From: Liolophura sinensis | Taxonomy: Eukaryota > Mollusca > Polyplacophora > Chitonida > Chitonidae | Reading direction: 5' to 3' | DNA length: 64,000 nt | Assembly (NCBI RefSeq): GCF_032854445.1 | Contig: NC_088300.1 | Location: 51,310,984 to 51,374,983, forward strand | Shown: positions 17,000 through 50,100 of the stretch, piece by piece | Position numbering within the stretch: position 1 is the stretch's first letter | How the letters are laid out: each line of letters starts with the position of its first letter | The notes under the pieces: model-generated | Told to the model about the DNA's origin: nothing | The model's database searches: none | What the model saw: only the letters and a program-made list of their open reading frames with translations | Translations under genes and position numbers: made by a program

Positions 17000-17107
17000 C
17001 GTGGGCATCCCCCGGGCCTTGTCCGATTTCCTCCCACCTTAATGCTGGCCGCTGTCATATGAATGAAATATTCTTGACTATGGGGTAAAACACCAATCAA
17101 ATAAATA
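17000..17107 (+). repeat. Partial SINE, 3' half
   Basis: Plus-strand match to the main SINE from the 'cccccgggcc' block through 'attcttgac' and 'caccaatcaaataaataa'. The head is missing. Lies 135 bp from the full-length minus-strand copy, so the two could pair as an inverted repeat. Confidence 0.75.
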
Positions 17108-17760: not shown

Positions 17761-20700
17761 TCACCTCTCACTGGCTAAGGCTTCTGCGCATGACTGACAG
17801 CAGTCTCGTCGGAACTCGGGATTTTCGTGACAATTGAAAGACGAAAAGAATGTGATATAACTTCTACAAGTGTATTTTCCGAGTTCTGATCGCCATATGA
17901 CAGATCTGTCTCCATACTCACACCCTGAAATAGAATTTACATAGAAAACGTGTAATATTTTGGACAACTGAGGATTTGAACTGATGTTGTATGAAATATA
18001 AATAACGTATATAGGCAAACCGTGCAGGTAGCCCTCATGATATAACATCATGCTTACCAATAGCTGAAGTGACCCCAGATTGATAGTTAAAAGGTAATGT
18101 TGAAGAAATTTCTTTTGTTCACAGTAAGGTGCAAGTGTAAGATTTATAGATGCAGTGTTAATAAAGGAATGGTCGAAAAAATAATACAACTTGAAGGCAT
18201 TCCTGAAGTGGAAACTCCCCCCAGAGCTAACTGTACAAATTCTCCACTACCCACCAGGGGACAAAACTCTGTAGTTATATCTCGCTATAGTGAATCGTGT
18301 AAAAATTCCTGGAACTGGATCCGGATACGGATACAGGACAAAACCAAATTGTTAGTAATGGGTCTGTACCAAGAGTTTCAGTAAAATTTGCGCATAATTT
18401 CGTTACATTTGGCATACGTGACGATTCGTTTAGATATATTTTATTTATTTGATTGGTGTTTTTTCATGTAGTCAAGAATATTTCACTTATACAACAGCGG
18501 CCAGTCTTATGGTGGGAGGAAACCGGGAGCATTCCAACATCCACGACCATCCGCTGTTGATGGCAGAGTCGTTCAGAAAAAAAAACTTGGATGCAGATCA
18601 GTTTCGGTTCACCGCCAAAAGGAAGTATAGATGGATTTGTGGTTATGTCAAACAGGGTGCAACCTTCATCGAAATCTGTGCATACTTTTTTCCGTTAAGT
18701 TGCTGACCGAAATTCTGTTATAAATATTATGCAAATAAGTAAACGTACAAATTCAGATATTATTTGAAATGGTGAACTCTGAGAGCCTGTACTTTATAAT
18801 ATATCTATTTTTGTCGCGTGCACTATCATTTGGCTTGTCGGATTCATTGCACTCTTGCCCGATAGTCTTAATTATTCGCTGTATGGAAGTTAGTACATAT
18901 ACATTGTCAGGAAAATCCTCTAGCTGACAGTTGTGGTACATAACACCAGATTAAGACATTCGCTGATGAAATAGATGCTAAAGTCCATATATGCATACAA
19001 TAACCAATATATGTATACAATAAGTGAACAAATGTAATCAGTACACCATTCAATCAAATAAACAACCGAGCCAGAATGCCAACTAATCAAGTATAATTTC
19101 TAATAACTAACCCAGTGTAAAACTGAGTCAGTATACGAACCTATATGCGCGGGGCGTCTCCAGCGCCTGCAGGTGCCACAGCAGATGTCTCTGTTCCTGG
19201 TGTCGTAGCAATGATGAGGTTTGATGTTGGCGCAGGTAAACTGATCGGAATCTCTGCAAACTGATATCAGAACAATCCGGGAGAAATGTATATACAAATA
19301 GAAATGCTGTTTTTTTTTGTTGTTGTTGTTTTTTGTTACATGGTAGAAATCTAGAAATAATGGTGCTTACTTGGAAGGGCGCTCCACAAATTGAAATAAA
19401 GACCATTAGTCTAAAATATATTAAAATAGACTCTTAAGTGTTTTCCAACAGACATAAACATAAGAACCATTAGTGAGAAAGATGCAGCCCAAAGACATAC
19501 TTTCTTCGTTCCACTTTTCGCCAGGATATTTCTGAAATACCGCCAATGTGGCGTTAAGCTCCAAACATTCAATCATTTATTTCAGCAATCAGTTGTTCTA
19601 TGCGACGCGAAAAACGTCATCAAGTGAGGCGAATATTAAAAATTACTTTGTTCAACGACATTTATGGCTGGGTTACTCAGAACTTGTTTGTAGTTACTTT
19701 ACAAACTTACATAACGGGAGAAGCCTTTTTGGGGGTTTCTTAGCTGTGACAAAATGGGTATTGTGGGAAATGCGATAGGGTGATCCATGGTGGCATGGTG
19801 ATGAGGTCATATCGCGCAATTGGGTGCACAACGCCGCTCTGTATAAACATCTTTAATTTCTACGGTAAGCGTTATTATCTTTAGTCATATAATTAGTCAT
19901 AATTAACTTCTGGGATGAGCTAATTAGTTCCTGTGCTTCATAAGCGGTTATATGTTGATTACTATGTAGACATTAAAGTCACCATTATCCGTGCCGATGG
20001 GAATTGTGAAATGTGAGGTTTAATCAAGGGCATAGTAGGACTGTATGGGTGCACGCCCGCGTTACTACATGTACGTGGCGATATTTCGCTATGACCATGT
20101 CGAATCTGTGGAAAGCTGGATGCTCTTGACTCATAATGGTATCCTACTTTGACTACACGTATAAAGTACTTTTACTTTTCGTAAAAATGATTTTTACTGC
20201 CCCTGAAATATAATAATGACACCAAAAGTTCAAAGAACTATTCAAAGTTAAAGACTACGTAAAAATCAAGTGAAAGTGTTGATAATGTATTTTAAGAAGA
20301 AAGATGGTCATTTTCACACAGAGAAAGAATTTAGTAGGTGGTAGGTTTTTGTTTTTTTTGTTCGGAAATACTTTTGTAACGCTCTAGTTTCTGTCAAAAA
20401 TGTAAGCATTGCACGAGAACTGGAATTTTCAACTTTTTTGAGCGCTGTAAAACCAATTTATTTTATCATTTTGAACATTTTGTCATGTAAAATGAAGCAT
20501 ACTGTAAACAAACACAATGCTTTTAGGACCAATCAACAAGTAACCACACAAAGGTCGTTATGGCCGTAATAAAATATCATGCTTCATTATGTAATTATAA
20601 TTACTCGATTTAAACATGTTTAAAATTAAATATCTTGATGTTATGACTGGGCATCATTAAGTAAAGGTCTGTCTTTTACATAGTATACTTATGTAAAATC

Positions 20701-20824
20701 AGAAAAAGAGAAATTAAACTTCCAAGCCTCACATACAGAATGGATTCTGGGTGTTCACGCTGCAGACGAAAGCCAGGGTCAAAAGAGCGCAGAAAGTCAC
20801 CAAGTTTACTGTATAAGGCGCCAT
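17761..20824 (-). CDS. Small secreted protein with two six-cysteine (PLAC-like) modules, 3 exons
   Basis: Exons 20824-20737, 19260-19141 and 17924-17761; 372 nt, 123 aa; GT-AG junctions, both introns phase 1. Exon 1 encodes a signal peptide (MAPYTVNLVTFCALLTLAFV, then SVNTQ). Exon 2 encodes one module with cysteine spacing C-x7-C-x7-C-x8-CC-x2-C ending RDICCGTC. Exon 3 encodes a longer terminal module, CEYGDRSVIW, with spacing C-x17-C-x11-C-x9-CC-x2-C ending DCCQSC, then a short tail and stop. A good acceptor (cttttttcttttgcag) ends 2 nt before the ATG, so a noncoding 5' exon exists upstream. The modules resemble the PLAC domain of ADAMTS and lacunin proteins in the C...C...C...CC..C order; this is resemblance only. 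The protein is probably extracellular. The gene is a divergent paralogue of the one at 25307-33115. Confidence 0.8.
18437..18545 (-). repeat. Partial SINE in intron 2 of the cysteine-module gene
   Basis: Reverse-orientation 3' part of the main SINE: tail-side ttatttgattggtgttt, the gtcaagaatatttcac block, and the ccagtcttatggtgggaggaa block. The head is absent. Confidence 0.65.
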
Positions 20825-20826
20825 GG

Positions 20827-21029
20827 CTGCAAAAGAAAAAAGTGTCTTTGGTTGCAAAGCGTTTTTTTTTTTTTTAGGTTTAAAAATGCGTGAGTTTTCT
20901 GTGGCGTGATAAATATTATCTTTATTGCGCATTCTTTAATGATTTTATGCATTTCATCTTGCAGGCGTACTGCATTACCTTGGTTTGCCAGGGAAAATAG
21001 AATCATCCTACACTAAGCAAGAGATCAGA
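20827..21029 (-). promoter_or_regulatory. Splice acceptor and upstream flank of the 123-aa gene
   Basis: A pyrimidine-rich acceptor on the minus strand ends at 20827, directly before ccATG. The true first exon and promoter are therefore further upstream, possibly beyond the minisatellite that begins near 21030. No TATA or first exon could be identified. Confidence 0.4.
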
Positions 21030-22830
21030 GTTCAAACCCGTTAGAAACCAGCGCACCTCGCCAGATACATATACCTGACAAACCAACGCACATATACCTG
21101 ACAAACCAACGCAGCCCACCAGATACGTGACAAACCAACGCACCTCGCCATGTACCTGGCAAACAACCACATCTCGCCATATACTTGACAAATAACACAC
21201 CTCGCCATATACCTGACAAACCACCACATCTCGCCATATACTTGACAAACCACCACACCTCGCCATATACCTGACAAATAACCACACCTCGGCATATACC
21301 GACAAATAACCACACCTCACCATATACCCGACAAACCACCACACCCTGCCATATACCCGACAAACCACCACATCTCACCATATACCCAACAAACCACCAC
21401 ATCTCGTTATATACCTGACAAATAACCACACCTCACCAGGTACCTGACAAACAACCACATCTCGCCATATACTTGACAAATAACACACCTCGCCATATAC
21501 CTGACAAACCACCACATCTCGCCATATACTTGACAAACCACCACACCTCGCCATATACCTGACAAATAACCACACCTCGGCATATACCGACAAATAACCA
21601 CACCTCACCATATACCCGACAAACCACCACACCCTGCCATATACCCGACAAACCACCACATCTCACCATATACCCAACAAACCACCACATCTCGTTATAT
21701 ACCTGACAAATAACCACACCTCACCAGGTACCTGACAAACAACCACATCTCGCCATATACTTGACAAATAACACACCTCGCCATATACCTGACAAACCAC
21801 CACATCTCGCCATATACTTGACAAACCACCACACCTCGCCATATACCTGACAAATAACCACACCTCGGCATATACCCGACAAACCACCACACCCTGCCAT
21901 ATACCCGACAAACCACCACATCTCACCATATACCCAACAAACCACCACATCTCGTTATATACCTGACAAATAACCACACCTCACCAGGTACCTGACAAAC
22001 CACCACACCCTGCCATATACCCGACAAACCACCACATCTCACCATATACCCAACAAACCACCACATCTCGTTATATACCTGAGAAATAACCACACCTCAC
22101 CATATACCCGACAAACCACCACACCCTGCCATATACCCGACAAACCACCACATCTCACCATATACCCAACAAACCACCACATCTCGTTACATACCTGACA
22201 AATAACCACACCTCACCAGGTACCTGACAAACCAACACACTTAGCCATATACCTGACAATCACCACACCTAACCATATACCTGACAAACCACCACACCTC
22301 ACCAGATACCTGACAAATAACCACACCTCGCCAGGTACCTGACAAACCAACACATCTCGTCAGATACCTGACAAACCAACACACCTCGTCAGATACTTGG
22401 CAAGTGCCTAGCCACATACCTGAAGAAAAAAAACCCACAGTCTCTCGCCATATTAACTGACAAAACGCACTTCCCCAGATACAAGAGAAACCAACGTACA
22501 CCGCCATACCCCTGACAAAATAACCTACCCTACCATACACCTGACTAGCCAATGCACCTCGCCATATACCTGACAAATCACCAGACCTCGCCATATACCT
22601 GTCAAACCACCACACATGGCCAAATATCTGCCAAACCAGCACACCTCGCCAAATACCTGACAAGCCCACGCACCGCGCCATATATACCTCACAAACCAAC
22701 GCATCTCGTCAGACAGCTGACAAACACCAAAGCACATCACCAGATACCTGACAAACCAATTAACAAATTACCGTCAGTTATCACCAAATACCTGAGAAAC
22801 CAGTGCATGTTGCTACATACATGGCAAAGC
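21030..22830. repeat. 28-29-bp minisatellite, ~62 copies, with higher-order repeats
   Basis: Long array of a unit such as 'ccatatacctgacaaacc' + 'accacacctcg'. The core, 21.3-22.2 kb, is a higher-order repeat: the marker 'cctcaccaggtacctgacaa' occurs at 21431, 21719, 21979 and 22211, spacings of 288, 260 and 232 bp, each block one 28-bp unit shorter than the last. The edges (21.05-21.2 and 22.3-22.83 kb) are diverged. The minus strand is open in overlapping frames (Tyr/Met/Val/Trp/Cys-rich) because the unit lacks stops there; I do not consider it coding. It lies between the divergent cysteine-module genes. Confidence 0.95.
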
Positions 22831-23489
22831 AGCGCACCATTTTTCTTAACACGGCAACCATTATGTTAACATGTAGCAAACCTGTGGTCTATGCATTTGC
22901 AACTACATGCGCGAAGACAGACAAAACTCAGTGAGCCTGAGTATACCTTAAAAAGTAAATGTCCACTACCAAATGCAGAATTCTGTATTTTAATTACACA
23001 AATAAATAACATAGTGCCATATAACAAATGAAATAATCGGTGGTCGATGTTATACGCGCAAACAACATACTAACGTGATTTGTAAAACATAAATCACATA
23101 AAACTCTAGACATGTTTTGTACCCGCAATACGTCTGGTTGGCTCCCAGAGGTTTAGGTGGATTAACTAAATGCAAACCATTTCTTAGTCGCAGAGCTTTT
23201 GGCTTTCCTTCTTAAGAATCAAACTGTTATTAATAAACAAATAATAGAAAGAAAACCAGTTGCTCTAAGCTAGGGTTTTCTAACAAATGTTCAGTAAGCT
23301 AGTCTATGACATTGTTTTAATGTGATATATTAAATCCGAGACAACACAGCATTTTGAGTATTTCTAGACCAATGACGTCAAATATATTGCAATAAACATC
23401 ACTGCATTTTTTGTACCTAATTCTCCTTAAGCCATGGTGCTAGGGGACGTGTAAATTGCCACTATTTTTGCTTTTGCGTGAAGTTAGAA

Positions 23490-23605
23490 TAAAACCCTGA
23501 CTGAGGTAAATTGACAAGAGGCCGTATTTCACGGGTTACGTGCGACCATTTGCGCGCTATCACACTGTCGTCCCTGCTCTGGTTTTGCTCTCTGTGCTGT
23601 ACGTC
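23490..23605 (+). repeat. ~110-bp interspersed repeat family (R1), copy 1
   Basis: Begins 'aataaaaccctgactgaggt', continues 'gacaagaggccgtatttcac', then 'gctatcacactgtcgtc' and 'ctgctctggttttgctct'. Seven related copies occur elsewhere in the window on both strands. No coding capacity, tRNA promoter or terminal repeats were noticed. Confidence 0.85.
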
Positions 23606-25002
23606 TATTATTTTATTTTATATTATATTTTAGTATATTTATATTCAACCAACGTTACAACATATATAAAAACTAAAGTTACGTCTCAATCAGAAATTGT
23701 AATGTTTGCCAAAATGTTCACAAGGTCTACATGTAGTTATGTTATTTAACATGTATCTCGTTATTTGGCACTTACTTGCTATAGTTCTGGAAACCCCAAT
23801 GTTGACTTCTATTTCGTAAAACTTTCGCCAGTTGCCCTATCCCTTTGCCTAAATCGCTGCAAAGTAAGGTTTTCTGGGTATAATATACAGCGTACGACGA
23901 GGTTTGAGGATAACACAATGAAGTTGACTCTTCAACTAGCTCAACACGACTACTGAGATCAAATTACTGTGTCAGTATAAGTTGTCCCTCCCTGCCACAC
24001 TACCCGGTCGGATGTTGGTGGTCACAGATAGAGATCCCTCTTATAATCAGACGTGGCTTTAATCCCTGGAGTTAATGGTAAAACAACTAAAGAGCACAGT
24101 GAGTTAATTAGGGTGACATGCCATGTCCGGTGTGTATCCGTTAGCAAAAGTTAATAATAAAAATATACATGTGACATTTGAGATTGTCATCACCTTACAA
24201 GTCAGATAATCCGGGGTTTTTACTATAGCCATGCATTATATAGTCATCTGCTCTATACTAATGACTCATGATGACATGTTTATAATGTAAGGCAAAAGAA
24301 GTGTGGTTAGAGATATTTAGTATGAATCAATAGCAGTATTTGTTTGTGGGTTACAACTACAGGTTCATGGCTTGTCATGAGCCGCAGTATTTAGTGACAT
24401 GCTGTTAATATATTTGGAGACTTATCATGACTTGATTAAAACTCATTTTTTTAAGTATCAAATATTTTTTGCATCATGTTTGTCCATGTTTGCGTCTAGA
24501 ATTCTAGCATCAAATAGCCAACTGGACAAATCCCTCCATTTTGACAGATCATGTCAAAATCATAACAGCCTCGTATGCTGGTCGTATGCAACTATATTTA
24601 TGCCCACAAGGTCTGCAGTACTTTATATTTGTATATGGTTTAAGGTAAAAGTAATTATTTATTGATTTAAAAGCCTCCCGACTTTGTTTACTAAAAGTAC
24701 GATGTCTTATTATTGCTTCATTATACATGCTAAGTATAAAAAAGGGAACAATCTTTTCTCAGTATTGTGGGGTTCTCACGTTCTAAACACCATATGAAGA
24801 CAACGGCAACATGTTCCTATGTAGTACCATTATAGTGCTGTCTAGCAACAGCCAATATCAAAACGAATGACAGCTGATTCACATATAGTAAATTCATTCC
24901 CGAGGTCTATCTCTGGGATCTGTCTAATTCTGCTTTAGCCATTGTGTTAGGTAATTCTTTAAATTACTATATTTTGAGATTTGATCTGAGGTAAACAGAG
25001 AA

Positions 25003-25090
25003 ATGATCCGATTTCACGACTTCTTTGTGACTTTATGGCCAACGGTCAAAGTGTCGTCACTGCTCTGGTTTCAGTATCTTTTGTGCTATA
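25003..25090 (+). repeat. R1 repeat family, diverged copy
   Basis: Shares the 'tttcacga' to 'gtcgtcactgctctggttt' portion of the family with the 23.5-kb copy; the first third is not recognisable. Confidence 0.55.
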
Positions 25091-25306
25091 TATACATCGT
25101 GTCTAAGCGCGTGAAAACTTGCATGGCGTCCCGGTTTATCCCAAATATAGGCCGCGAACCTCATCCGAGTCCGATGAACCCAGATAAGTGAAATATGATC
25201 TTAAATTGTCTTCCCTGTGCTACATAGTGCGTGACGTTACACGAAACATCCATTTCCAGGCCGCCATTTTAGCTTTCTTGAGGACTGAAGAACTAGCTGG
25301 CCAACC

Positions 25307-28300
25307 ATGTTCCTTCGCAAAATCCTCGTCCCTTGTTTCCTGGGTTGCTTGTTGAGTTTGCAAGTCATCGATGGTCAACACGGTAATGTAGCCTAAAGTA
25401 TTCTGTAAACCAGAACCAGTGCGAAGATAACTTTCTTGTAACAGTTCTTAGTTGAAATGAAAAGGCCAGGAAGCTGATGGAGCTCTGCTTACAAAAGCAT
25501 GTCTTCAGCTCTTCTCATTACTTCAAACACTTTTTTCACATATAACATTAGCTTTGAGCTTACATGTATATGTGCATTTGTTGACAAGAATAGGTGAACA
25601 TAATTCTGCATTTCGAGCCTTACTGACAATTGTCTCTAGATGCATATAAAAGCTGAGAATAACGTAAGAGTGAATCAGAATTATATATGGATACAAAGAA
25701 GACATGTACACCCTGTTGACCTTTCCCAATGTCATGTATTTATATATGTATTAAATTTATAAATATTGTTGATTGTTAACTCATAGTTCTCTCAACGTGA
25801 GCCATATGTCACACTACAGCTAAAAAGTTTTGTTATTTGCTCCTTATGATTATTTGTTTTATACATAGTGTTTTGCATCACTACTTGAACGGAAAAAATT
25901 TAGTTTAACTGGACGAGAGTTTTACTATTAATACACCCATGTCTGCTTATTTGAAGAATAGAGAAAACCACATTTATATTTGAGATGAAAAAAAATTCAA
26001 ACTTTTAGTTTCACCAGCGACGTTGTAATCCAAAAATCACAAAAGACAGTTCTAGGTGATCTCAGGTCTTTAGGAGATCGAAGCGTTCAGCTGTACGGCA
26101 ATATGGTTTGCTGCTGTCGATTTGTTATATTCAAAACGTGCAGTAGTTCTACAAGTCAGTTCATTTATGCAAGTGTGCTGTTTTAGGAAGCGTCCCTGTC
26201 CGATCTGCTCCAGTGTTTCCAGAAGGCTATCCTGCGGTAAGTCCGATACCAATATGTCAACCTCCTTCGCCGAATGAGTGATCGACGAGTTAAAGCAATA
26301 AGGCACGCGTAAACTAACAGCTCTCTTTTAAGTGGAGAATTCTTGAATATCCCCCAAACATCCCTCAGATAAATACGGGTAATAAATGTATTGGTCACCC
26401 TTATCGATGTCTATAACCGGTTAATTTTGTTACATTTCTTGTCTCCTTTTATATAACTTTTTAAAACACACCTTCCAGTGTTGTAAAGTTGAAGTATATG
26501 ATATATGTTAGTATTTAAAAATACACTCACACTTATGTAACAGCCGGTAGACAACGCCGACAACTCTTGGTCGTTCTTTCCATAACATTTGGTCTTTCAT
26601 TTTAGTACCAAATTGTTTTGATTTTCGCCCTTCTTTACGAGAAATATTAGAGATGACAGTCGCCTAAATTCTTCCTTGTGGCTTACGAATGGTGTGCAAA
26701 TTTTAATTTAGGTACAAAATATATATATATGCTGTATATTTTACGTCACAGTGCTGGCAAAGAAGCGAATACACTGTATAGACTTGTGTGTTTTGTATTA
26801 AGATCGTTAGTGATTGCCAACACCATGAAACGTATATCATGTCCATAATCTAAGGCCAGTTGTCGTTTAAAATGCACGCAGATCTTCATGAGTAACAGTT
26901 TTACTATATGGAGATACTTTCTCCAGCCAGATTCCCAGGCCACCAGTGTGATTTCAAACGGTCGGATCTCTGCACATCTGGAATATGTGGACCGAGGAGA
27001 AGGAACCCACAGAGGGGACATAACTCGTGCAGGTACAAATCCTCAGCATGACAGGCGAGGGTACGGAGAGTCCGACACTGGAGGAGCGTCACGGACATAC
27101 AGCACGTCGAGGAGGGAATCCAGCTCATCGACCTCGGGAGTGGATTATTCACAGACTGGGGCTGACAACATAGGCCGGACCCAACCTGTTACATCGTCCA
27201 GAGACAGAGCGAGCGCGGAGCGCACTTACGACTCGTCGTCGACCGGAATGAGCTCGAGCACATCAAGAAGAACGAATCCCGGGACGTCAACAAGAACAAG
27301 CGTGGGTCGCACTTATGACTCGACGTCATCCAGGACAAGCTCGACAACGTCAACCAGAACAAATCCCGTGCGAACGTATGACTCGACCTCAACGCGTACA
27401 AACCCCGTGCGTACCTATGACTCGACGTCGACCAGAACAAGCTCGGGCACATCAACCATAAGGAACCCCGGGACGTCAAGACCGGTATTGAGCAGGTACG
27501 ACACGACGCCAATCAGAACACACTCGAGACGCACTTATGACCCCCTTGGAAGAACGGGTTTGGCTGAACCGTACGGTACCCCTGGTAGCCGTACGTACAT
27601 CCAGAGCGGGACGCAACGGTTGCCCTATGATCCATATGCTGCCAGAAGGGTGACTCATGCCAGACAGCCGTACGTTGCAAATGCGAGACAGCCTGTGACT
27701 CAACCAGACCGGCGCGGATATTACCAGGTAAGCTAATATGATTAATGTTGTTACTGGATTAAGCAGGGTGGATTGAGGTTTGGGGGGCAGCAGGATGAAA
27801 CACTACCCTTTGTGTGGTCATTATGAGTGCCTTTTTCTGTTTAAAATTCGTCGAAATGCATCAAAACTAACTGTGGGAAGATCGTGACAAGGCCTTAATG
27901 CGTTGGTTTGATTCCAACACATGTGCCATACATCAAAACGGATTCGAGCTTGGACAGTCTTGTCACCAATACACTTCATAATGGGAATGAGGTAAACTGT
28001 ACCTTTTCCCGAATTATGCTGATCAAGCTACGGATAAATTGGAATTCTTAATCATTAAGTAAGTACATGCATGTAGCAACTTCTACGCCAATACTAGTAA
28101 GCACAAGTAAGTAAAAAAAAGCAGCGAGATAATTTGCAAGTTTGACTTCACTGGTCTAGAATTACTCAAAATACTGCCATTTCATCACATTATATAAACA
28201 TCTGTATGAAAGCTTCGCAAAGGAACCAAGCCTCGATGGTCTACCAAAAAAGTTTATTCAGGATTAGACTTATAAATCACTTCTTTTTAAAGCCACCTTC

Positions 28301-31300
28301 GTTGATTTTCATGGTTGTTTCTGTGCTTATAATGGATGAGTGCATGAGTGTATGATTTCATGATGGACTTGAGCTATAATGCAATAATTCAGCTACATCT
28401 TTGTGACATCAGGAATCAAGTCTTCAAAGTAAAATAGAAATTAACAGGAAAGTTAAATAGAGCAAGGTAAAACCTTCTTAATAACAAACCATTTTTAAAA
28501 TCGCAAAAATGTTAGAAATGTTTATTAGAAACTTTTTCTACAACTCTTATTCGGCTTTGAATTAAAAATTATTTTCGCAGCCTCGAAACTATAGCTGATG
28601 CCGCTACAGTCTTATCTGACGATGTGCGGCAGTTTATTTCAGGCGCCTGCCGCCATAAAGCTTAATGTCGTTGACATAGAAAATTCCGTAAACGTATGTA
28701 GATCATAAACAGCTGTGAAATAAGTTAATCAACAATTAAAATCAGATTTGTGATGGAATAACAGTATTACCAGGGATTCTATGTCTAATAGCATGAAGTA
28801 GAGTGTGTTGAACCTTTGGTTAATATCCGAACAGATTACATCACAGAAAAGAAAGTGTTTGATGCCGTATCATTTATTCCACAACATTAGCGGCTAAAGG
28901 AAGATGTCATCTGGATAAATTAGTCTCAACACGGCATCTTAACAATCTGCATAAGTTAATGTTTGGGTAAAGTGATACACGCAACACTAACGTCATTACA
29001 GAATACACTGTCTGGGTATAAAAATTTGTGAATGAAGCCCACCAGTTTAAAATGACACGCCTTAGGCTTGTAAGGAATCCTAACCCAAAAGTGAGGGATT
29101 AAACCTGTGATTTAAAATCTGTGACATTTTAGATCTATACACGCAACTGCTGCCTGTCTGTATTACTATGGCAATACAATCTCGCTCATCACTGAATATT
29201 ACCCTCAGTTATATTTATTTATTCATTTGATTGGCGTTGTACACCATACTCAAGAATATTTCTCTCATACATCGGCGGCCAACGTTATGGTGGAGAAAAC
29301 ATTACAGAGCCACAAACCCATGATCATCCAAAGGTTGATTGCAGACCTTCCACGTACGACCTTAGGGGTAGCCAGCCTGTCCTCACGTTATAAGAAAATC
29401 GTATACAAATTTGTTTCAACGTCTCTATAAACAAACTTAAAAAGCTCCTCCCTTGATCGAGTGCCCTGTTGGCTTTTCAGCAATGCCCTTCCGACGATTT
29501 CCGCATCCTGATTGAAGGCGTTGAGTGTCACGTAGCCATTGATTCTGTTGGCTCTCACGTGTGCTATGATGATCGGGTGATGAGAGATCGACGATGCTGT
29601 GAGCGGTGTCTACAGATCAAAGACTCCAGAAAACCAGGTGATAGAAAAATAGGGCGCTCAGCATCCTATATCCGGGCATCCTATACAGTATGGTTGTCAC
29701 GTAGTAATCTGAGTAACTTCGGGACAGCAACAATGCCCGGAAATAAGCTGTTAAAGACAATACTAACATGAAGTATATTTCAGATGACAGACCGTTAAGG
29801 ACCGTCCCGAAAAATAGTTCGATTTATGTTGCGAGAATTTTTCTAACCGAGTAAAACCCCTTTAAAACATTGGATCAACGGTGGTATGTTGGAACCCAAT
29901 AGATATATCAATGACATTATATCGGTAGTTTTTGCCTGAATTAGTTAGCTCCAAGGTCCATTGATTGAATGTATTCTTAGCTTTACATGCACAAGCATTT
30001 TGAGTGCAAAAGTTTTGTGGTTTGTGTGCGATGATTGGCAAAAACCGAATGTGACATCACTGATTGCACTTTGGTCAGAAATGCTACATTAAAATTCAGT
30101 GTTTCAATTGCATTTTACCTGGTTGAAAGAAGTTCTGAAACAATAAATAGTCCTATTTCCTTTGATCGTGATTAATGGCCTTTCATTTGACATTCCTTGC
30201 GTCTTTCCAACATTACTAGAAACTGTTGACTGCTTATCTTTGCGTGACTTAAAAAGACCAGTTTCGCAGGAAAGTGTAAGAATTAATGCATGCGTAGTAA
30301 AAAAAAAGCCGGTAACATTTAAAATCTACGTCAAAATTTCTTGTGACGTCGACTGAAATCATCATATTTTCCACAGCATGTAATAAATGCTACAAGAAGA
30401 GATACATGTATGTACACGCCACATGCGGGACCTTTTAGTATATTACTATCAAATTGAGAATTCAGAATTGAAATTATCGATTTTGTTGTAAAGCGGGTGT
30501 CATAAGAGACCTTGTTCATCCCTGTGTAGATATAGCTCCAAATATGATGTACCGAGAGGACTGTCTGTTGTCTCATTTAAGTGAAACGAAAGTGGATAGA
30601 TTTCTTTTACCACCTTGGCCATATTCTATTTGTTTTATGCAATAGTTCATCGATATACTACATTGTAAATGAAAAGTATGGAACTCTTAAAAGTTTACGT
30701 TACAAGAATTCTTGTATATAGTGGTATACATATGCAAACAAGTATAGTCCTGAAGTGCGCAAATCTCTCTCAGTGGAATACCTATGCATATGCAGTAGAG
30801 CAAACAGGTATAGAAAAGCAGGCTGACTACCTATAATGTTGTCTCGTGTAACGTTTCCAATTGTAGCTGTTATTTGGCAAGGTGAACCTGATACATTTTA
30901 GTTCAGAATTCAACATTTTGTTCAGATTAGTGCTAAAGGTTTACAAAGGTTTCGTAAAGTTGCATAATGTGCCTTTAATGTTTTAATAAATAATGTATCA
31001 GCGATGTACGGTGTGAACACGTGTAGTTACCGTGCAACAGCTCATGTATTTAAAATATACCACTGTTAAATGCGGCCAAACGTTGTCCATTGTGTACTGA
31101 GTGAGGTTGCGTCCTGCTGGGACTTTTTTTAACTAAACAACAATGCCAACCTTATCATAGTAATATTAAATCAAATTCAAAGTTCTTGAATGTTGATTTA
31201 TGAAGTTTGACAATGCTGCCGTGTGCAGTACCACAAGTCTCTAGCATTACACAACGCTATTAAATGCTGCTTTTCGTTTCCTATAGGTTGTGAGTACGGA

Positions 31301-33115
31301 GATAGATCCCGTCAGTGCTCAAGTCTCAATCCGTCTCAGTGTTACATCCGGTCTAACAGAAACATTTGCTGTCAGACGTGTGAACGGCTAAGAAACCCAT
31401 CACAACAAAGTAAGTACTTAAACCTCGCGCACGGTCAGTGTTAAGCAGGTTAGTAATGTATTATGCGTGGCAACAAAGTGTGGGCTAATATTTAGTTTAA
31501 AATGATATCAGTCGTCTTGAACAAAAAGTCCCTCTTTACTCCTTATACCTCTTTGATGACTTCTAATAATGTAAGTATGTCGATATAAATATAACACAAA
31601 CCTGGCTAATACATTTTAGATATGTTAGTATGCATAATCGTTAAGCAGGTAGATAGGAAATCATCTACTACGATGGATTAATGTATAGATCTCTTTGAAA
31701 ATGTGTATGGTTCACTATTTTTTAACACGAGCAAATGTCATTCGATATAACTCACATTTCTCCCCAGACTGTGAATATGGAGACTTGTCCCCGACTTGCG
31801 CACAAATGCCGCGCCGGATGTGCTCACTGCTCGAGAACCAGCGGATATGCTGTCAAACCTGTGAGCGCCTGCGCGACCCATTGCGGCCGGGTACGTACGT
31901 CTTGATTCGTGCAGTAGAAATTCGTATGATAAACTGATTAACCGATGTGCATGTTAGTAATCCAGTCACATATGGTTGTATATTTTCGACGATGCTTTCC
32001 GCTCTTATCTTGTCGGATGAGTAAAACTATCTTCAGTGTTTATTCTGTAAGACGGATCGGAAGCTAGAGACCATGTCATTTCCTTAGTAACAAACGGCGT
32101 GGGTGAAGAAACGGCCCCCCTCGTTATTGCATAGGAAAATGCCTATTTTTGAATCGCTGTCAGCGATCTTGTATCCATTGCATTTGTATAATTTTCAGTT
32201 TTCCAGATAGTCTGAGTATTTCTGCAGAGCTTTCGTGACGTTATTTGTACACCTTATTGGTCGATAGCTAAGTAGCAAAAAATGACCTTTTCCCCAATGC
32301 TTTAACACAGGGGGCCATGTTAATTTAGACGCGAAAGATTGGTCTTGTGACCCCCAACTTCCAACCCAACAGGCGAAGAATAGCTTTGCCTGTGTAGGCC
32401 TACCGGTTCATTGACGCATTGTCTAAACCTCAGAGCAAACTTTTGACTTGTTTTTGGTTTATTATTTATTGTGCTAAGATAAACCTTTTCCTTTTCCCCC
32501 AGAATGCCCATACGGCGACCGTTCCAATCAGTGTGGAATCATATCGGGTGGAGCTTGTTATAACGTGCGCGTGAGGGACACGTGCTGCGCTACCTGTAGC
32601 CGTTTAGACGTCGGCACTCCCGGTAAGAGTAGTCTCCCTTTATATGGTATTCCACCAATTTTCACCTTAAAATTAGTCCGTTTAATTTATCTTCGACAAA
32701 CGTATTCTGCTATGTAATTGATTAAACTATACCGTGACCTCAGTGAATCATAGCTATATTTTTCTCCTAATATTTGTTATACCCAGTTTATTAAATTGTA
32801 AGCTACGTGTTGCATTTCCAGGAGGTTGTATTTTTATCTTTTATCTTTTTGCCACACTCTATCAGGCTCCGAGCGTTATAGCTATCGTATTACACCATAC
32901 TTTAATATTTATCGCTTACAACAAATTTTCTTCATGTATGTTTTACAGGTTGTCAATATGGTGACCATAATTCTGTATGGACGAGTCCGGCTGGAGAGCT
33001 CGATTGTGAAACGTACACGCGGATATACGGTCTCGGCGCATGCGCAGATCCCAATTTCTCCTCGCGATGTTGTCACTCATGTAGAGGTTACGTTTCTAGA
33101 AATCCACAGTCCTAA
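25307..33115 (+). CDS. Secreted protein: Tyr/Arg/Ser/Thr repeat region plus five six-cysteine (PLAC-like) modules, 8 exons
   Basis: Exons 25307-25382, 26187-26236, 26927-27727, 29481-29637, 31287-31409, 31768-31890, 32503-32622, 32949-33115; 1617 nt, 538 aa; all GT-AG, phases consistent. Exon 1 is a signal peptide (MFLRKILVPCFLGCLLSLQV, cleavage likely after IDG). Exon 3 (267 codons) is low-complexity and basic, with repeated RTYDSTS-RT and RTNP blocks. Exons 4-7 each encode one cysteine module. Exons 5-7 fit C-x8-C-x7-C-x8-CC-x2-C exactly (CEYGD or CPYGD start, CCQTC or CCATC end); the exon 4 module is diverged. Exon 8 encodes the terminal module, C-x17-C-x11-C-x8-CC-x2-C, the same type as the last exon of the neighbouring minus-strand gene. 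Exons 5-7 have symmetric phase-1 boundaries, as expected for tandem exon duplication. AATAAA lies at 33319-33324. Function unknown; a matrix, cuticle or adhesive protein is plausible. Not matched to any named gene. Confidence 0.85.
29212..29370 (-). repeat. Diverged SINE in intron 3 of the 538-aa gene
   Basis: Reverse-orientation main-family SINE body: attcatttgattggcgttg tail region, actcaagaatatttctctc, ggcggccaacgttatggtgg. It sits 110 bp before exon 4. The tRNA head is not recognisable. Confidence 0.65.
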
Positions 33116-47138: not shown

Positions 47139-50100
47139 CTACCGCGTGAGGTTTCGCGGGTATGTTTCAGTGAAGAAGTCATTGCTCACTTCTTTCCCAA
47201 AACGCATGAATCTTTTGTCCTTTTCAGTATCTTCCTCAGATTGTTCGTTGTCACGTCCGAACCGCATGAACCTTTTCTCAGCCGGATCTCGGCCGAATCT
47301 CATGAACCGCTTTTCTGCGGGATCTCGCCCAAAACGCATGAATCGTTTGTCTTCCAGAGCTCTACCAAATCGCATAAATCTCTTGTCTGGTGTTTCTTGC
47401 CCTCCATCAGACCTTCCAAAGCGCATGAAGCGCTTACCTTCTTCCGTTATTTGGTTTTCTTCGCCGCTTTTGCCAAAGCGCATGAAACGCTTTTCAGCCT
47501 CAACTGGATCCCGACCAAAACGCATGAAACGTTTATCGGCGTCCCCTGAATCTCTGCCAAAACGCATAAAGCGTTTCTCAGCCTCTTCGGAGTTTCTTCC
47601 GAACCGCATGAACCTTTTCTCCTTTTCTGCGGAATCCCGACCGAATCGCATGAACCTCTTTTCTTCCTCCATGGGAGTTCTACCAAACCTCATGAAACGT
47701 TTCTCTTCTCCAGATTTTCCAAATCTCATAAAGCGCTTCTCCGGGTCTCCTTCCATTGCGTTTTCATCGTCATCGCCATCTTCAAGAGCACGTCCGAATC
47801 GCATAAACCTCTTTTCATTATCCCGCCCGAATCTCATGAACCTTTTGCCAAAACGCATGAATCGTTTCTCGTTATCTCGTCCAAATCGCATGAATCGCTT
47901 ATCTGCCATTCCATCTCCCATTTCTTCACCACCACGACCAAATCGCATAAATCGCTTTTGTTTATTGTCCGTTTTGTTGGCGTTGTCATTGTCTTCCTCT
48001 TCGACTTCCGACGTCTTAATCTCGTCTTCAGCTACTTTTTCCGTCTCAGGAGGAGCATCAGCTGATCGTCTTCTCCTCAACTTTGTTCCCTCCGCCCTCT
48101 CGATATCATGAATTCTGAACAAGGCCTCTTTAAGAAGGTCCTCAATAGCCCTGTCCCCACGGCCAAATCGCAGGAACCTTTTGTCTTGGAACGGTAAACC
48201 TCTTCCGAACCTGAGGAAACCATCACCGCTTAGAGCTCTCCCAAAACGTAGAAATCGCTTTTCTTTTGCGTCTCCATCTGAGGACTCTGTAAAAAAACAA
48301 ATGAAAGAAAGGTCATCAGAAAATGCGGCAAATATACATAGATCTAATCTGATGCTGTAAAAAAAGTTTCATCATTGATAGAATAACCAATCGAGAAAGA
48401 AACAAGTTGTGAATTCAACGCACGAGGGCCACGCCATGCAAGAACACCACACGGGGACCAATTGCTAGCAAGGCAGGAAACAAGACGCCTACCCTATTAA
48501 ATCAGCTTTGGGCGAATTCGCTCAATAAATCGTTACAAATTATCTGTCTAGGTAATAATGATCGAATGGGGCGCCTGGAGAGCCACGTCAACAACGTCAC
48601 TTAAAACTGACGGACAGTCGGTTGCGTAAATCACTCTAACCATAGTGATCTTTCGTCATTGGCCAATTCATGTTGTAGACGCTATCGCTTGACGGGGCGC
48701 ATTTGCGTAGGGAAGGAGAAGACCTGGACTATAATTAACCTCATACATATTTCATAGAGTTTAGGGAGAGGCTAATTTCAGTGAAGACGACGATGCAGGC
48801 TGCGGCATTACGGGTCAGCTTTGGCCACATAGTCCTCTGTCATCACCGGTTTCTTGGGAATTGTCACTATCTGCTTTCTGCCCAGCTATCAACCTGACTC
48901 ATGAAAATTCATCCGACTCAGAGTTCCTCGGAAGGTGGAATCTCGTCGCGTGTTTTCACCTTCTCATCCCCCAGCCCTTTAATTATTTTCACACTTTTCT
49001 CAGGACTACTTTCTTTCCCGACTCACGAAGTGCCAAAGTTCATTTTCGCTAACTCCCAGAATGGGACCATCATCGTCCCTGAGTTTTCCTCACCCTACGC
49101 AATGCTTTAAAATGCTTCTCTTCGTCGTTTCTTTTTCCAGTTTATTGTTAATCCGTTTAACCCCAAAACTGTCATTTGACCCCACCAATATTGTTACAAA
49201 TGACATTAAGTAGGTCCTGAAATCCCAACCGATAATGACACCAATCGATCATCTGAACTAAACGTGAAGTATTGTACATTTTGTCCGGTTTATTAATGCT
49301 TTATACGTTGAATTCACATGAAGACATGGCGGATAGGTACTGAGATCGTAAACATTTCACATCTGGTGCCTTCGCTGCGCAGGTTGTTGTTGTCATAACT
49401 AACGCCGTATAGATACCTGTATTTTACCACTGTTACCGACCGTCTATTACGAGCAAGAGATGTCTGTTTTTATGTACCACAAGTCTCATTTGTTTTTATG
49501 ATGTCATCATTACATGTTAAGCGCTATTAACTGTATCAGGTTGTTTATCAATACTAGTGTCCAGAACACAGTGTTAACCAACTTTAGTTCTGGTGTCAGC
49601 AATGCTGGTGTTGTTAGTAAGGACGTAAGCTCTAAGGTCGGGTGGAGAGGTTTGTCTGTATGGCCTAGCTGTGGTGTTCAATTTACCAATTTTGTCAATT
49701 TTGCGTGGATTATACGAAACATTTGCCTTGCATAAATGATAGGAGTGCCTGTGTTGCGGTTTTATGTTTGCTGTTAATTATGTTTATGGAAACTGATATC
49801 TCGCTGATTATAACCCACGAAGTCCTAGCCGGCGACAATTGTCACTCGGTTGCAATGGGCTATTTGTTCCAATACATTCAACATCAGCAAAACAATTAAT
49901 GGCTTAAATATTGTAGGTGATTTGGCGAGTAATGATACATCGTCAAAAAATCGATTTATTCGTAACGTAAAAAATGTTTTGGTTTTCATTTTCATCTTGA
50001 CAAAGCCCTGTGGCTAGAAAGCTAGTCTACGTTACGAATGGCACATAAATATTGTCATTAGATAAGCCATAACGTCAGCTTCAGATACATTTGTTCTCAA

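Follow-up and report, generated by a model that had tools for sequence, protein, structure and literature searches.

A stretch of 64,000 nucleotides from the chiton Liolophura sinensis (contig NC_088300.1, positions 51,310,984 to 51,374,983; "the window" below means this whole 64-kb stretch) carries a head-to-head pair of genes, a small one on the minus strand (20824-17761) and a large one on the plus strand (25307-33115), both read from the window sequence, whose predicted proteins are built of six-cysteine modules. By comparing these modules with the rest of the genome, we found that the pair probably encodes secreted, non-catalytic proteins whose modules are akin to the tails of chiton MIG-17-like (ADAMTS-type, M12B) proteases, a name taken from the domain set and from annotation practice for such mollusc proteins and not from a protease tree. 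The two are the only module genes that we found without protease exons, against 13 protease-gene clusters. An earlier account made from the letters of the window, here called the sequence-only reading, had placed both genes and their strands correctly to the base and had taken them for an isolated local family; the latter view was not supported, because the same kind of module forms the tails of all 13 other clusters, behind M12B/ADAMTS cysteine-rich exons.

The genome searched comprises 609 Mb in 632 contigs, with the window on contig C6, and relatives were sought first with the module regions of the two window genes and then with the tails of two paralogues. At least 13 other clusters of module exons were found (six on C3, four on C1 and three on C6), and the DNA was read at all 13. 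This count is a lower bound, in which L034/L035, L036/L037 and L039/L058 are each merged into one cluster; the weak places at C6:32.12 Mb (E 0.26) and C7:11.57 Mb (E 0.40) were left unread, a match in L058 with a spacing of 4-4-6 was put down to chance and excluded from the module count, and the module pattern was absent from the weak places L029, L030, L031 and L033 (L032, which overlaps L029, lay outside that scan). Upstream of the modules, each of the 13 clusters has M12B metalloprotease and/or ADAMTS cysteine-rich exons. The exon around the third zinc histidine, which broadly follows the pattern SLGxxHDG...IM...NPWxFSxCS, was read in 12 of the 13, with a glycine-to-cysteine variant in L052, and the HExGH exon was read in 8; at the C1:93.24 Mb cluster only an ADAMTS_CR_2-like exon was read, and no catalytic exon. 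Since all 13 clusters stand behind such exons, we may conclude that in this chiton the modules usually sit at the C-terminus of MIG-17-like, ADAMTS-type metalloproteases. The window modules also share their geometry with this set: as a rule the acceptor lies 2 nucleotides ahead of the first cysteine in both, and the protease-gene module exons, like those of the window, are generally in phase 1. One of the protease-gene modules shares 58% identity with exon 5 of the large gene.

The general profiles respond weakly to these protease exons. ADAMTS_CR_2 (CR2) exceeded the Pfam cut-off in two of three paralogue CR2 pieces, both hand-joined from several exons, while a genome search with the same profile listed an exon in 10 of the 13 clusters, each below the cut-off (20.2-26.3 bits vs 27.3), and the places that passed it all lay outside the clusters. 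Single M12B exons also score under their Pfam cut-off. Reprolysin_5 (PF13688) alone found three places genome-wide, none near the clusters, and is a poor probe because the protease domain is split across exons.

Two of the protease loci showed features of their own. At about 5050-5202 of L058 (C1:93.33 Mb), an M12B exon has tyrosine in place of the third zinc histidine, and HExGH queries match this locus at 7e-6, yet the HExGH motif itself was not matched; the protease of L058, from these residues, may be inactive. On the minus strand of L038 (8542-9834 in reverse-complement coordinates; C3:1.786 Mb), a mucin-like open frame of 431 amino acids (aa), rich in Thr and Pro, lies just downstream of the final module that we read in a protease gene; it is listed as a candidate neighbour, and splicing to that gene is not assumed.

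The small gene has three exons and a predicted protein of 123 aa, and the large gene eight exons and a predicted protein of 534 aa; both frames are intact, with GT/AG at every junction and neither stop nor frameshift across the 11 exons. In the small gene, exon 1 (20737..20824, minus strand) holds the start codon and a predicted signal peptide (MAPYTVNLVTFCALLTLAFVCSVNTQNP..) and exits in phase 1 at a GT donor, exon 2 (19141..19260, minus strand) holds an internal module C-x7-C-x7-C-x8-CC-x2-C between AG and GT, in phase 1 at both ends, and exon 3 (17761..17924, minus strand) follows an AG acceptor in phase 1 with a terminal module C-x17-C-x11-C-x9-CC-x2-C and the stop codon. All exons of the large gene lie on the plus strand. 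Exon 1 (25307..25382) again holds the start codon and a predicted signal peptide before a GT donor; exon 2 (26187..26236) is a linker of 17 residues between AG and GT that enters in phase 1 and leaves in phase 0; and exon 3 (26939..27727) encodes a 263-residue basic arm rich in Ser, Thr, Arg and Tyr with RTYD repeats, its acceptor before 26939 having been picked by eye from several in-frame candidates. Exon 4 (29481..29637), in at phase 0 and out at phase 1, encodes the first module, which we call type A (C-x13-C-x11-C-x10-CC-x2-C), exons 5 (31287..31409), 6 (31768..31890) and 7 (32503..32622) each encode a type B module (C-x8-C-x7-C-x8-CC-x2-C), and exon 8 (32949..33115) closes the gene with a terminal type C module (C-x17-C-x11-C-x8-CC-x2-C) and the stop codon. 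The order is thus A-B-B-B-C after signal, linker and arm in the large gene, and B, C after the signal in the small one. The best 12-residue mean hydrophobicity of the signal peptides on the Kyte-Doolittle scale was 2.51 for the small protein and 2.41 for the large protein, and both proteins are predicted to be secreted.

All seven modules have six cysteines and end in CC-x2-C near the C-terminus, as in PLAC, and each occupies one exon. The module-to-module boundaries are all in phase 1, and the acceptor lies 2 bases before the first cysteine; exon 4 of the large gene is the exception, entering in phase 0 with a distance of 3 bases, and the terminal exons of both genes close with a stop, unlike the phase 1 exit of the other modules. 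The spacings given by the sequence-only reading, namely the exact C-x8-C-x7-C-x8-CC-x2-C spacing of exons 5-7, the C-x7 start of the small gene's internal module and the C-x17-C-x11-C-x8/9-CC-x2-C of the terminal modules in the large and small genes, were all borne out, and its PLAC-like module order was supported. The architecture it assigned to both genes stood for the signal exon, the one-exon modules and their phase 1 boundaries; in the large gene, the junctions of exons 2/3 and 3/4 are in phase 0. When both strands of the window were scanned, a loose six-cysteine pattern ending in CC-x2-C occurred seven times, always within the two genes, whereas 100 dinucleotide shuffles of the window yielded 0.03 occurrences on average and never more than 1; a tight pattern occurred four times, against none in the 100 shuffles.

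Profile comparison by hhalign showed that the three types are kin to each other. For A-B, A-C and B-C, none of 60 column shuffles that kept the cysteines reached the observed score, which indicates that the modules are related beyond their cysteine pattern; the A and B profiles here mix window and protease-gene rows, and the C profile consists of the terminal modules of the two window genes. In comparison with the nine PLAC exons of the genome, types A and C again scored above all 60 shuffles, but over 18 aligned columns, and type B was reached by 9 of 60 shuffles (18-23 columns aligned across the types, with protease-gene rows included in the A and B profiles). The PLAC profile of Pfam (PF08686), whose cut-off is 26.4 bits, scored the large gene's last module at 17.0 bits and the 229-aa module region at 13.2, and gave no row for either whole protein or for three other modules scanned alone; that cut-off was passed at nine places elsewhere in the genome and at none in the window. 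A formal PLAC label was dropped on the best score of 17.0 bits, despite a possible profile kinship of types A and C.

In a tree of 40 modules, with those of L055-L057 outside it, exon 4 joined the modules that come first in protease genes (94/100), on a branch of length 3.51. Both last modules of the window grouped weakly (91/79) with four protease-gene modules that were taken as last because no further module lay downstream in the DNA read. The sequence-only reading had set the last-exon module apart; by this weak grouping it may also have a counterpart at the ends of protease genes.

The arm of the large protein has no counterpart in the small one. Its 263 residues include 46 Thr, 43 Ser, 38 Arg and 17 Tyr, with neither Lys nor Cys, and have a pI of about 10.7 and five RTYD motifs; over all 534 aa, the large protein has 67 Arg against 3 Lys. 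Such a composition invites a different explanation, in which both are structural proteins of adhesive, mucus, cuticle or mineral matrix, whose modules cross-link or bind gel and whose arm adheres to surfaces or mineral, with no regulation of proteases. The Thr-rich sequence that follows the protease-gene modules, or lies just beyond them, in L037 and L038 is in keeping with this, as is the mig-17-like limpet protein P-vulgata_8, which has no HEXXH, carries Ser-Pro-Thr-Thr repeats and occurs in adhesive mucus (PMC7333891). Against it, the small gene has no arm, and a search of the whole genome with the exon 3 arm at E <= 0.1 returned only the arm itself and hence lends no independent support. 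We regard a purely structural explanation as unlikely, if quite conceivable.

It could also be argued, as the sequence-only reading itself had allowed, that the pair belongs to the 3' portions of ordinary ADAMTS or papilin genes, with the 5' exons placed elsewhere or dropped during assembly. Each of the 13 other clusters that we found is a 3' end of this kind, and a splice-acceptor-like stretch finishes 2 bases ahead of the ATG of the small gene. However, each gene starts with an exon for a predicted signal peptide that is in frame with its modules, and the head-to-head layout, with start codons 4.5 kb apart, confines any 5' exons to that gap or to places beyond the other gene. When the peptides of eight catalytic and seven CR2 exons were compared with the 64-kb window, nothing rose above noise (best E 0.044). 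Neither the ADAMTS_CR_2 profile (PF17771) nor the seven CR2 exon queries (best E 0.19) found such an exon in the window, and a scan for HExxHxxGxxHD turned up no more than chance occurrences of HExxH, in frames broken by stops. As controls, nine loci from other clusters were used: each of five third-histidine peptides matched all the other loci, 8 or 9 in number, with E no higher than 2e-8, and a type B module query matched four modules of the window with E between 1e-10 and 1e-5. Most cross-matches of the HExGH and CR2 peptides lay at 1e-25 to 1e-3, but a few loci were matched only at 0.1 to 0.8 or were missed. Pfam scans of both whole proteins found no protease domain, and no TSP_1 row at E <= 10, in agreement with the earlier statement that the modules stand without protease or TSP1 domains. 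Judged from sequence, then, we hold firmly that no catalytic exon of ordinary divergence lies in the window, and less firmly that very divergent ones are missing. The modules are indeed of the kind found at the 3' ends of full ADAMTS genes, but no protease exon to accompany them was found in the window, and we consider it very improbable that the two are ordinary protease genes whose 5' exons have escaped notice.

Several observations weigh against reading the pair as secreted, non-catalytic relatives of protease tails. Both genes stand as predictions from sequence, and the acceptor-like stretch before the small gene makes an additional upstream exon possible. The HExGH and CR2 queries were weaker probes than the third-histidine queries. 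A type A module query from a protease gene found no module in the window at E <= 1, exon 4 included, because exon 4 is very divergent. That exon has a very long branch in the module tree, and its entry is in phase 0, compared with phase 1 for the leading modules of protease genes. The tree itself is poorly resolved, good support being confined to 2 of its 37 inner branches, and it does not unite the modules of the window in one group. The poor resolution, the scatter of the window modules and the long branch of exon 4 leave descent from one particular protease gene not established, and the tree has too few columns for a parent gene to be named. Finally, the localising role that we ascribe to the modules is carried over by analogy from other animals.

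Structure prediction brought in a third possibility, that the modules have the ShKT fold and act as secreted ion-channel ligands or antimicrobial peptides. AlphaFold2 gave the type B module (17 rows) four short helices at a mean pLDDT of 90.5 and the terminal module (12 rows) an additional hairpin at 85.1. The Foldseek search with the type B model returned four rows only, an ShK homologue and three natrin (CRISP) entries, with TMq 0.51-0.62 and E 4.5-5.6; VIA-align placed type B on the C-terminal region of natrin with Z 3.1-3.2 and the terminal module on natrin with Z 2.4. These scores are noise for so short a chain, and ShKT cysteine spacing differs from the CC pair of the window modules. The ShKT/CRISP matches of the type B and terminal modules can therefore serve as a lead at noise level, drawn from models. 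Foldseek results for the terminal module (19 rows) were set aside as noise, the top row being an unrelated dehydrogenase and natrin reaching TMq 0.36. The Pfam ShK profile gave no row at E <= 10, where HMMER filters drop most rows above 0.1; with PLAC also below its cut-off, the sequence-only reading's appeal to the Pfam PLAC and ShKT profiles brought no assignment. A Toxin_28 (Pfam) row for exon 5, at 13.8 bits against a cut-off of 25, was dismissed as noise. Searching PDB sequences for the large gene's module region brought no matches, and none came from NCBIfam, whose library covers bacteria and archaea. We judge a channel-ligand or antimicrobial function of this kind extremely improbable.

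The coding signal was examined in exons 5-7 of the large gene, which were compared with seven paralogous modules that have identical cysteine spacing, giving 21 pairs, each of 31 codons (the small gene was left out). Divergence was 0.66 at third codon positions and 0.42 at both first and second positions; this concentration at third positions means that exons 5-7 behave as coding DNA. That the genes are functionless, decaying fragments, as their being the only module genes found without protease exons and the tandem array beside the small gene might suggest, has hardly any likelihood in view of 11 exons without stop or frameshift, GT/AG throughout, and this third-position divergence in the large gene.

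If the pair arose from protease tails, as we think probable, a tail would have parted from its catalytic head and gained a signal-peptide exon, and in the large gene the basic Ser/Thr/Arg/Tyr-rich region would also have been set before the modules. With modest confidence, we take the module comparisons and the tree to mean that the whole A-Bn-C tail was inherited rather than newly assembled. The modules, presumed ancillary localising regions of the proteases, may still fold as small disulfide-bonded units and could anchor both proteins in extracellular matrix or mucus without proteolysis. The large protein would then be a structural linker or scaffold whose basic arm is probably O-glycosylated, and the small protein, with its two modules, would serve as a soluble ligand of the parent proteases or as their competitor; this division of roles, drawn by analogy, carries less weight than the proposed origin. 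A more specific version, which strikes us as rather improbable, makes the large protein a head-swapped molluscan matrix or adhesive protein, in which a MIG-17-like tail joined to a lysine-free arm would form mucus, cuticle or foot adhesive, while its small neighbour would displace the parent proteases from the same sites.

Other features of the window were recorded. A tandem array at 21091-22758 (1.7 kb; 29-bp unit, 288-bp higher-order period) lies between the two genes and stops about 270 bases from the start codon of the small gene. In view of this array and of the 4.5 kb that separate the start codons, the idea of a bidirectional promoter was set aside. Copies of a dispersed element (ttgattggcgttt...caagaatattt), spotted by eye, lie near 17060, 18480, 29220 and 33990, in introns and flanks, and a stretch resembling it is present in the paralogue locus L038. 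An Rfam scan of the window gave no matches. On the minus strand at 47142-48368, an open frame of 409 aa contains 18 FMRFG and 3 FLRFG motifs, mostly following KR sites, and is by this motif content identified as an FMRFamide precursor gene; part of it was detected as tandem repeats (47257-47585).

Protease-free relatives of ADAMTS are already known; what is new here is the occurrence of the modules without TSP1, the lysine-free basic arm and the presence of protease relatives in one genome. Among the matches listed in the open-licence literature, no description of these genes or of chiton protease-free module proteins was found. With related module exons in protease and protease-free genes of one genome, the loss of a catalytic head can be studied beside its relatives, and a six-cysteine module type overlooked by the Pfam PLAC model is present on at least 13 chiton protease loci.

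The chiton MIG-17-like proteases (for example at C3:19.22-19.24 Mb and C3:1.79 Mb) share with the pair related six-cysteine modules, one per exon and usually in phase 1, and the same first, middle and last module types in an order that is weakly supported; they differ in that the window shows no catalytic or ADAMTS_CR_2 exon. ADAMTSL and papilin/lacunin are secreted, protease-free ADAMTS relatives with a C-terminal PLAC and TSP1 repeats, and ADAMTSL and papilin are thought to act by binding matrix or receptors without proteolysis. They resemble the window pair in being ADAMTS-related, in lacking a protease domain and in secretion, which is predicted here, but they have TSP1 repeats, of which none were found in the pair, and the window modules score below the PLAC cut-off. 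With ShKT/CRISP proteins the pair may share a short helical six-cysteine module, predicted here and accompanied by weak structural rows, but no ShK profile row.

Closer in plan is DYF-4 of Caenorhabditis elegans, a secreted protein for which the available portion of the source names a signal peptide and a C-terminal six-cysteine PLAC as sole domains, and in which C366Y alters localisation (PMC8221789). DYF-4 has one true PLAC, whereas the pair has several PLAC-like modules and the small gene consists of modules only; DYF-4 may likewise work by matrix or receptor binding without proteolysis. MIG-17 itself has a C-terminal PLAC (PMC4856095), and TSP1-PLAC proteins occur in sea slugs (PMC7663992). 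P-vulgata_8 of the limpet Patella vulgata, a mig-17-like reprolysin reported solely from the interfacial adhesive mucus (PMC7333891), resembles the pair as secreted, non-catalytic mollusc mig-17-like kin with Ser/Thr-rich repeats, and differs by retaining a reprolysin domain, which the window genes lack. Taken with the chiton pair, it gives a hint that the molluscan MIG-17-like family lost catalysis on more than one occasion, perhaps in association with secreted gels.

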